Assembly: GCF_000488215.1 (NCBI RefSeq)
Contig: NZ_KI530712.1
Location: forward strand, 872,881 to 936,880
Length of the DNA: 64,000 bases
Reading direction: 5' to 3'
DNA from: Acinetobacter nectaris CIP 110549
GTDB lineage: Bacteria > Pseudomonadota > Gammaproteobacteria > Pseudomonadales > Moraxellaceae
The number at the start of each line of letters is the position of its first letter. Position 1 is the stretch's first letter. The notes under the pieces were generated by a model. It did no database searches. It was not told where the DNA came from and saw only the letters and a program-made list of their open reading frames with translations. The position numbers were made by a program, and so were the translations under genes. Shown here one piece after another: positions 31,958 to 34,211 of the stretch.

Positions 31958-32563
31958 ATGCACCATTTTTATTTTCTTCCCGGCGCTTCAGGCAATACAG
32001 ATTTTTGGCAGCCTCTTTTACAGAAGTATATAAATACCACACATGAAGGACAAATCATTGCCTATCCTGGCTTTTACAATATACCGTGTGAACCACATAT
32101 TCAGTCTTTTGAGCAACTGAGTGATCATGTTTTATCTAAAATTGTAAAACCGAGTATTCTCATTGCTCAGTCAATGGGTGGTCTATTTGCGATACGAGCT
32201 GCGCTAGAAAAAGGTGATTTGGTCAAAGGCTTAGTGCTTATTGCAACTTCAGGTGGCATTTGTTTAGATGAGTTCAATGTACAAGACTGGAGAGCAGACT
32301 ATCACCAACAGCAGGCTCAAACACCGAACTGGTTTGTAAAGACGCAAGCCAATTATGAAAAAGAACTGGCATCCATAAAAATACCCGTTCTTCTCATTTG
32401 GGCAGATGCAGATCCAATTAGCCCCTTACCCATTGCATTAAAACTACAGTCTTACTTACCTCAAGCTGAACTAAAGGTTATCAGGTCTACAAGCCATCAT
32501 TTTGCCTCATTGCACAGCACAAAAATTAAAGCTTATATCGATGAATACTTTCAATTACCTTAA
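31958..32563 (+). CDS. Small alpha/beta hydrolase
   Basis: 201 residues. The oxyanion region LPGASGNTDFW (residues 7-17) precedes the nucleophile elbow AQSMGG with S72. The acid is likely the Asp in LLIWADADPISP, and the catalytic His is in TSHHFASLH near residue 185. The fold and order fit the alpha/beta hydrolase-6 type. Substrate is unknown; esters or similar are possible. It has no partner genes. Its stop overlaps by 4 bp the stop of the convergent omptin gene, with no terminator between them. Confidence 0.82.
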   Translation: MHHFYFLPGASGNTDFWQPLLQKYINTTHEGQIIAYPGFYNIPCEPHIQSFEQLSDHVLSKIVKPSILIAQSMGGLFAIRAALEKGDLVKGLVLIATSGGICLDEFNVQDWRADYHQQQAQTPNWFVKTQANYEKELASIKIPVLLIWADADPISPLPIALKLQSYLPQAELKVIRSTSHHFASLHSTKIKAYIDEYFQLP

Positions 32564-33624
32564 AATTGATATTGTGCGCCAATGCCTAAATTATAGTATT
32601 TAGAGGAAATGCCGGCATTACCCTTAATATTACTCTCTTTAATTCTTATTGTTGCAGGGGAAAATTTATAATCACTCCAAGTAACCTCACTAAATAGCTT
32701 TACTTTAGGTGAAATATAATAACCACCATTTAGCGTTACTGAGTAGTAATCAGACATTTCACCTTTACTATAAAATGTAAGATCTCGATAATAATGCTCA
32801 TCATGGTCTTTTGCTTGAACCCATTGACTCATCTTAGCAGTGGCATTCAATTCATATTTATTATATGTATAACGGGCGACTAAACCGATATATGGTGCTC
32901 TAAATTTTTGTTTGTAACCAATACCTGACTCATCATCAGGAAAACTTCCCTCAAGCATCATCGCTGTGCCTTGAATATAGTTTCCTGAGGAATTTGTTGC
33001 TCCATAATGGTATCTACCTCCCTTAGAAGTCCAACTAAATTGGCTTTGCTCATAACCCGCGAGTACACCCATTTTATAATTTGGTGCCCGAACAAACCAA
33101 GAGATAAAATTAAGATCAAACTTATTTGCAGAATTCAGAGAAGTGTTTGGATGGTGTGACCAATCTGTATTGAGTGATCTTGTTTGAGGGTCTCTCCAAT
33201 CATAATCATCCATTTTTACAGTGTTTGAAGACAATGACGTCCAACCATTTATATTCATGGTTAACCATGAGTTCAATTCCCATGTAAAATCTGCCTTTAC
33301 TGTGGGTACATTTTTTATTTCCCAATTCAGCAAACTTAATATGCTATTATCATTCGCAAATACATATTTTCTAGCTTCTCCACCCGTTAAAATAGAAGGT
33401 GTTAAACTAAAATACATAGCCCCATTAGAAAGTGTGTCTTTTTCTTCTACCTGTTGTACATTTTGTTGATTAAGATATTGTTTAGATACAGGCTCAGCTA
33501 TAATTTCTGATTCATTTACAATTTCAACTGGATCTAATTTATCCCATGAAGTTGCATAAATAGATGTAATTGGTAAAAAACTAAAAATAAATAAGTAATT
33601 TAATGGTTTCAATTGAAAGTACAT
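32560..33624 (-). CDS. Omptin-family outer-membrane aspartyl protease (OmpT/Pla-like)
   Basis: 354 residues from the ATG at 33622-33624; the upstream open frame is rejected because MYFQLKPLNYLFIFSFLPIT is a clear signal peptide start, cleaved near IYA-TS (residue 24). The barrel matches OmpT throughout: GWTSLSS, DDYDWRD with D140/D142 (OmpT D83/D85), HPNTSLNSANKFDLN, YKMGVLAGYEQSQFSWTSKGG, GYKQKFRAPYIGL, DEH with D275/H277 (OmpT D210/H212), and a terminal YQF. All catalytic residues are kept. An extra 40-residue acidic segment (about 28-68) precedes the barrel, unlike OmpT. Expected to cleave peptides between basic residues at the cell surface. It lies 92 bp after the BLUF gene. Confidence 0.88.
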   Translation of the reverse strand: MYFQLKPLNYLFIFSFLPITSIYATSWDKLDPVEIVNESEIIAEPVSKQYLNQQNVQQVEEKDTLSNGAMYFSLTPSILTGGEARKYVFANDNSILSLLNWEIKNVPTVKADFTWELNSWLTMNINGWTSLSSNTVKMDDYDWRDPQTRSLNTDWSHHPNTSLNSANKFDLNFISWFVRAPNYKMGVLAGYEQSQFSWTSKGGRYHYGATNSSGNYIQGTAMMLEGSFPDDESGIGYKQKFRAPYIGLVARYTYNKYELNATAKMSQWVQAKDHDEHYYRDLTFYSKGEMSDYYSVTLNGGYYISPKVKLFSEVTWSDYKFSPATIRIKESNIKGNAGISSKYYNLGIGAQYQF

Positions 33625-33656: not shown

Positions 33657-33716
33657 AATAACAAAACACCTAAAAATAGTATATTTTTTTATCATATAAA
33701 TAAGGATTTATATTAA

Positions 33717-34211
33717 TTAAATATAACTAATATAGCCTCGTTTATATCCTTTAGGGCTACTATTAAATACTTCTGCATCTTCACTTACTTTTTTCAAGGT
33801 GACTTCTTCTGCATCTAATAAATGTTGAATAAACTCAACAATTTGAGTTTCATTAAGTTTAGTAGGCTGAAAGTACTCATAGTTTTTAGCTTTAAAAAAT
33901 AGATCAACGCCTTTGTTACTTTGAACATATTTCATCGACCAATCACTAAACTGAATATTTGGGATTTCTTTTTTACTCAGTAAAATAATGTCTTGATGTC
34001 TTTTATCTTTTTTTATGCCTTCAAATAGCTGCTCTACAACCTCTTTTTCACCTTCTAAGCATTGAAAAAAAGAATTATGCGCATAATACAAAACACCATT
34101 GATATTATGAAGTCGGTTAAAACGAACGGCCGTCGTTAAAATATCACTCAGATCTTGTAACAATTCCTGATGATCTTTACGCGTGCTTGCATAGCATAAT
34201 TGTATTAACAC
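33717..34211 (-). CDS. BLUF-domain blue-light photoreceptor (BlsA-like)
   Basis: 164 residues. The BLUF fold fills residues 1-95 with all photocycle residues visible: Y7 (LCYAST), N32 (RFNRLHNINGVLYY), Q50 (FFQCLEG), and W91/M93 (SDWSMKY). A C-terminal helical extension follows, with no output domain. Short BLUF proteins bind FAD and act by protein-protein contacts; BlsA of Acinetobacter baumannii is the known example. The start is GTG (34209-34211), supported by AGGGGTG 5 nt upstream. An omptin gene lies downstream on the same strand with no terminator between, so co-transcription is plausible. Confidence 0.92.
   Translation of the reverse strand: MLIQLCYASTRKDHQELLQDLSDILTTAVRFNRLHNINGVLYYAHNSFFQCLEGEKEVVEQLFEGIKKDKRHQDIILLSKKEIPNIQFSDWSMKYVQSNKGVDLFFKAKNYEYFQPTKLNETQIVEFIQHLLDAEEVTLKKVSEDAEVFNSSPKGYKRGYISYI

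Follow-up and report, generated by a model that had tools for sequence, protein, structure and literature searches.

Background

Most work on omptins concerns pathogens of animals and plants. In OmpT, E27 and D208 form the floor of the S1 pocket, as described in PMC11410778. The window (the whole stretch of 64,000 nucleotides of the Acinetobacter nectaris genome that was analysed here) holds an omptin gene, whose product shares D83, D85, D97, S99, H101, D208, D210 and H212 with OmpT and OmpP of Escherichia coli. Phage 2G7b carries an OmpT-type omptin of E. coli, on which the OmpT numbering is based. The window protein differs from OmpT and OmpP in having Lys in place of E27, and Gln, Gln and Glu in the places of E136, R138 and K226, as well as in possessing an extra N-terminal segment. 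OmpT and OmpP fell outside the Acinetobacter omptin clade in our tree.

The plasmid omptins Kop, Epo, Cpa and that of Serratia marcescens were 41-46% identical to the window protein over the barrel (tblastn) and had the same catalytic residues. Unlike the window protein, they lacked the segment of 47 residues (the E27 column was at residue 48-52, against residue 86 in the window) and they retained Glu27 where the window has Lys86. The omptins of other Acinetobacter (G017, G047, G066, G067 and G149) formed one clade with the copies from nectar species, yet they differed from the window protein in having no segment and in keeping both E27 and D208.

Omptin-like stretches were present in 1263 of 72,556 plasmid records, mostly from Escherichia, Klebsiella and Shigella, and also from Erwinia, Pantoea and rhizobia. 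They were also present in 14 of 50,697 phage records, 13 of which were Escherichia phages. No relative of the window omptin was detected among the viral_contigs scanned. No treatment of these Acinetobacter omptins was found in the open-licence literature, and the words omptin, OmpT, protease and peptidase do not occur in the main text of PMC11774029, which deals with the nectar species. The omptin family is old and well known, and the window protein is a variant of it with an altered S1 pair.

Identification of the omptin gene

A first-pass annotation of this DNA had placed an omptin gene at the coordinates given in Table 1. The coordinates stood, but the strand had been left out; the gene lies on the minus strand. 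An alternative GTG start at 33669 would yield a protein of 369 aa. The ATG at 33624 was preferred because it aligns with the starts of related proteins (MYFKIK..).

The identity of the protein was borne out by Pfam family PF01278, which we take to be equivalent to MEROPS A26. It matched aa 81-354 with an E-value of 2.2e-80 and a score of 270.2 bits, against a cut-off of 22.6, and was the sole Pfam family recovered at E-values up to 1. The annotation had held that closest matches outside A26 would count against an omptin; no significant ones were found, and the weak extra matches had E-values of 0.06 and 0.56. Six NCBIfam omptin models matched with E-values between 9e-75 and 2e-30, each below its own cut-off, and the single match in PHROGs was phrog_19858 (E 6e-74), a family of unknown function. 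Chains of Pla were the top matches among solved structures (E 1e-64), together with OmpT (E 1e-53); Pla stood outside the 53-row alignment and the leader comparison described below. Since the sequence matches solved omptins, a ten-stranded outer-membrane barrel is expected. An AlphaFold model of the window protein had a mean pLDDT of 35.2 (from an alignment of three sequences, those of the window, A. baretiae and A. boissieri), and the placement of the catalytic residues was read from the alignment to solved omptins.

The catalytic residues D140, D142, D275 and H277 were found at the very numbers that the annotation had listed. They align with D83, D85, D210 and H212 of OmpT, and these four columns were identical in all 53 rows of the alignment. 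The S99 column (S156 in the window) was likewise constant in 53 of 53 rows. H101 (H158 in the window) was kept in all six nectar rows. Family match and catalytic residues thus confirmed that the window gene encodes a genuine omptin, a predicted outer-membrane protease.

Table 1. Features of the omptin locus (positions within the window)
Feature	Position	Strand	Remarks
Alpha/beta hydrolase gene	31958..32563	+	Convergent; overlaps the 3′ end of the omptin gene by 4 bases
Omptin gene	32560..33624	-	354 aa; ATG at 33624, stop 32560-32562
Omptin barrel domain, aa 72-354	32563..33411	-	PF01278 aa 81-354; alignment to 2x56 and 7xw0
Catalytic His277 (OmpT H212)	32794..32796	-	Alignment
Catalytic Asp275 (OmpT D210)	32800..32802	-	Alignment
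Asp273 (OmpT D208, S1 pocket)	32806..32808	-	Alignment; retained; Ser/Thr in three nectar relatives
Asp154 (OmpT D97, S1′ pocket)	33163..33165	-	Alignment; retained
Catalytic Asp142 (OmpT D85)	33199..33201	-	Alignment
Catalytic Asp140 (OmpT D83)	33205..33207	-	Alignment
Lys86 codon (OmpT Glu27, S1 pocket)	33367..33369	-	Alignment
Acidic N-terminal segment, aa 25-71	33412..33552	-	47 aa; net charge -6
Signal peptide, aa 1-24	33553..33624	-	Cleavage after ..SIYA placed by eye; starts aligned in relatives
BLUF blue-light sensor gene	33717..34211	-	92 bp upstream of the omptin gene, same strand; order shared with G069

Phyletic distribution

Omptins were found in 11 of the 175 Acinetobacter species genomes surveyed, and in 10 of the 169 with a completeness of 90% or more and a contamination of 5% or less (one carrier, G079, has 9% contamination). 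Among 299 genomes drawn from the family, matches were confined to one of 16 genera. Several matches were left out of the alignments before rows were counted: L016 and L021 (missed by the profile), L017, L020, L065 and L066 (weak or partial, by our own choice) and L012 and L013 (copies of L005 and L008). In addition, 6 of the 36 matches of one search were not included.

PMC11774029 describes a single nectar-dwelling Acinetobacter clade of six species, with genomes of 2.38-2.75 Mb, that acquired genes for GH28 polygalacturonase and PL1 lyase. GH28 was detected in seven of the 175 genomes: that of the window (G000), A. baretiae (G005), A. boissieri (G009), G003, G069, G079 and G144. These seven formed one clade in an RpoD tree (99/99; 28 genomes, picked by us). 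The window genome possesses GH28, falls within this RpoD clade and comprises 2,668,938 bases, against the published 2.38-2.75 Mb. The GH28-bearing clade matches the published floral-nectar clade. Omptins were present in six of the seven GH28 genomes versus five of the 168 others (Fisher 8.6e-8, given as description only, the species being related). The nectar genome G003, which is 99% complete, had no omptin match anywhere. The omptin of G144 was interrupted by one in-frame TAA and the remaining frame was readable; it is therefore either a young pseudogene or the product of an assembly error.

Phylogeny of the Acinetobacter omptins

The Acinetobacter omptins formed one clade, both in a first tree (90/86) and in a second that included the named omptins (99/99). 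The five intact nectar copies were a clade with 100/99 in both trees, and their branching, ((G000, G069), (G005, (G009, G079))), was that of SMC. The RpoD tree differed within G005, G009 and G079, pairing G009 with G005. The SMC tree covered 27 of the 30 genomes searched, as G003 had no match and G179 and G182 had partial ones. Like the RpoD set, the SMC genomes were our own selection from the 175 Acinetobacter genomes and two others.

The interrupted copy of G144 had a long branch. It joined the other nectar copies in the first tree (92/83); in the second, G017 fell between G144 and the other nectar copies, and constraining the six together was not rejected (AU p 0.45). A single nectar clade for the omptin gene itself is thus not secure. 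Support for the placement of the tree neighbours of the Acinetobacter omptins was weak (84/73 and 56/11). The named Enterobacterales omptins, in the tree that included them, lay outside the group of rows belonging to the order of G808. An omptin with an N-terminal tail was probably already present in the ancestor of the nectar clade.

Selection on the gene

In the pairs for which both rates could be estimated, barrel dN was far below dS. It was 0.128 versus a dS of 2.39 between G000 and G069, and 0.090 versus 1.66 between G009 and G079. As dS was near saturation, the ratios are rough; there was no dS estimate in three of the ten pairs and an absurd one of 26 in one more. In four yardstick genes, dN was 0.121-0.176 for G000/G069 and 0.034-0.143 for G009/G079. 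With the tail included, whole-gene dN was 0.179 and 0.103 respectively, the former being slightly above all four yardsticks. Purifying selection continues to act on the barrel.

These values bear on the possibility of gene decay in the nectar clade, in which the altered S1 residues, the broken copy in G144 and the absence from G003 would mark stages in the loss of the omptin. The stop codon in G144, the lack of an omptin in G003 and the genome reduction in the nectar clade described in PMC11774029 would agree with such a course. However, all catalytic residues were intact in the six nectar rows, and the low barrel dN was within the range of other genes for the same two close pairs, which makes decay very unlikely.

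The N-terminal segment

The annotation had also reported an extra acidic segment ahead of the barrel and its absence from classical omptins. The segment is present, following the signal peptide of 24 aa, and among its 47 residues are nine D/E and three K/R. Its absence from classical omptins holds for the named ones that we compared. All six nectar copies possessed a segment, which was 47-62 aa long and included 9-12 acidic residues and 2-7 basic ones; none of the five other Acinetobacter omptins did. Accordingly, the E27 column was found at residue 86-100 in the nectar copies, at residue 48-50 in the five non-nectar Acinetobacter omptins (with starts picked by us) and at residue 47-52 in six named gammaproteobacterial omptins. 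Longer leaders are possible elsewhere, with 73 residues to E27 in a Microvirga ORF and 96 from the first Met in L063, true starts being uncertain in both.

Segment identity among the five intact nectar copies was 68% between G009 and G079 and 45% between G000 and G069, and only 5-20% between these two groups. Segment dN/dS was about 0.24 (G009/G079) and 0.66 (G000/G069), above that of the barrel. By charge and hydropathy, all six nectar segments were on the disordered side, that of A. boissieri barely so. In OmpT, both ends of the ten-stranded barrel are on the periplasmic side. The segment is therefore expected in the periplasm and not at the cell surface. Most likely, the tail is a disordered periplasmic extension without a catalytic role, its side of the membrane being deduced from omptin topology.

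The S1 pocket and specificity

The acidic S1 pair of OmpT, which determines the preference for Arg/Lys, is broken in the window protein, as E27 is replaced by Lys86, with D208 kept as Asp273. A HMMER alignment to solved OmpT (7xw0) gave the same pairing of Glu27 with Lys86. The column was Glu in all 52 other rows, very distant omptins included. Sixteen columns were invariant among the 47 non-nectar omptins, and 15 of them were invariant in the six nectar rows too, E27 being the single exception. At D208, Asp was found in 46 of the 47 non-nectar rows and Ala in the remaining one, a distant omptin from Microvirga; D208 is thus not an untouchable site. In the nectar copies this residue was Asp in the window, G069 and A. 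baretiae, Ser in A. boissieri and G079, and Thr in G144.

One member of the E27/D208 pair was consequently lost in four of six nectar copies versus one of 47 other rows, and in no row were both lost. In an earlier alignment of 46 rows, the pair was broken in four of six nectar copies versus none of 40 others (Fisher 9e-5, the rows not being independent). Counted as three, the S1 changes all fell within a subtree making up 13% of the length of a tree from which Microvirga was absent; the probability of this is 0.002, and 0.005 when three long outgroup tips are removed. All statistics on the S1 pair were computed after the pattern had been seen and are descriptive.

Placed beside Asp273, Lys86 would give the S1 pocket a roughly neutral floor, and the enzyme of the window species would then probably have a weak preference for Arg/Lys at P1 or none. 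The omptins of G069 and A. baretiae should retain this preference. Since these two keep both S1 acidic residues, a change of specificity throughout the clade is not required. The annotation had proposed a cleavage assay on dibasic peptides, which alone is too narrow a test given Lys86 at the Glu27 position.

The protein could instead cut dibasic sites in the ordinary manner of OmpT, for instance in cationic antimicrobial peptides from plants or bees, with Lys86 a tolerated change, one specific to the strain or a sequencing error. Lys86 is a single AAA codon in one genome, and the closest relative (G069) has the full acidic pair, as does A. baretiae. Asp273 is retained in the window and so is the acidic S1′ residue D97, as Asp154, in a column that was His in 15 of 35 unnamed rows. 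OmpT cuts dibasic sites and probably serves in defence against cationic peptides, according to PMC7356225. Against this, a residue conserved as Glu as far as very distant omptins has undergone a charge reversal that should disfavour Arg/Lys, and its partner D208 is altered in three other nectar copies. We regard an ordinary dibasic-site protease as unlikely.

The barrel might also have adhesion or a receptor role at the surface as its main function, with proteolysis secondary and the pocket changes neutral. For Pla, adhesion and invasion reportedly do not depend on proteolysis (PMC7696990). That the six nectar rows all keep the catalytic residues along with S99 and H101 speaks against such a role, which seems to us extremely improbable.

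From these comparisons, the window omptin is probably a working surface protease with a shifted specificity, which would be due to Lys86. More tentatively, the acidic S1 pocket may have been dismantled three times or more, in separate lineages (E27K, D208S and D208T). Under this broader proposal, which is possible and to which we would give less credence, surface proteases that no longer prefer Arg/Lys would act on proteins of nectar, pollen or pollinators, for nitrogen or for evasion of defences, and would carry an acidic periplasmic tail specific to the clade.

Loss of LPS-binding residues was considered as a further nectar trait and rejected, as E136 and R138 vary widely among non-nectar omptins. 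Together with K226, these are residues that we take to be LPS contacts of OmpT.

Genomic context

The hydrolase gene that overlaps the omptin gene adjoins smc in G000, G005, G009, G069, G079 and G144, and it is retained in G003. Omptins were found in three different places. In G000 and G069 the gene was near the smc, hydrolase and BLUF genes; in G005, G009 and G079 it was near a large sensor kinase gene; and in G144 it was in another place. No omptin was present beside the kinase gene in G000, G069, G003, G144 or the non-nectar genome G012. With three places and one copy per genome, the gene must have moved within the nectar clade. Purifying selection would have kept the omptin while its chromosomal place changed.

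The gap of 92 bp between the omptin and BLUF genes contained no terminator-like site, promoter- and terminator-like sites were at the level of shuffled sequence, and the gene order was seen in two genomes (G000 and G069). An operon shared by the two genes is possible, and so is expression of the protease linked to light through its BLUF neighbour.

Location of the omptin within a pectin-enzyme island was considered and did not hold in A. boissieri, where Pfam identified the genes next to the omptin as those of a Slam (surface lipoprotein assembly modifier) protein and of a surface lipoprotein. The C-terminal barrel of this lipoprotein resembles those of factor-H-binding protein and TbpB. Slam and lipoprotein genes 77% identical to these accompany the omptin in G079, and they are missing from the corresponding locus of A. 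baretiae; these observations refer to L023:4721-7638 and L029:9315-12271.

G003 has apparently lost smc. Only 779 bp separate its hydrolase gene from zipA (L159:6875-7652), and the 75 C-terminal residues of SMC were weakly matched there (33% identity, E 2e-6 when that stretch was searched alone). The whole genome of G003 gave no SMC match at E-values up to 0.001.

Implications for nectar Acinetobacter

The nectar omptin would be secreted to the outer membrane, with its active site opening at the cell surface, and its substrates may be peptides and proteins from floral nectar, from pollen or from pollinators. Nectar is poor in nitrogen, and Acinetobacter benefit from pollen in nectar, as described in PMC11774029. 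Use of proteins or peptides, or evasion of plant or bee peptides, are therefore plausible ecological roles. The nectar copies offer a natural set of omptins in which two specificity residues vary and the catalytic ones are constant, and thus a ready test of how acidity of the S1 pocket relates to specificity. They would also add a secreted protease to the pectin enzyme genes that have been linked with the transition of Acinetobacter from soil into nectar.
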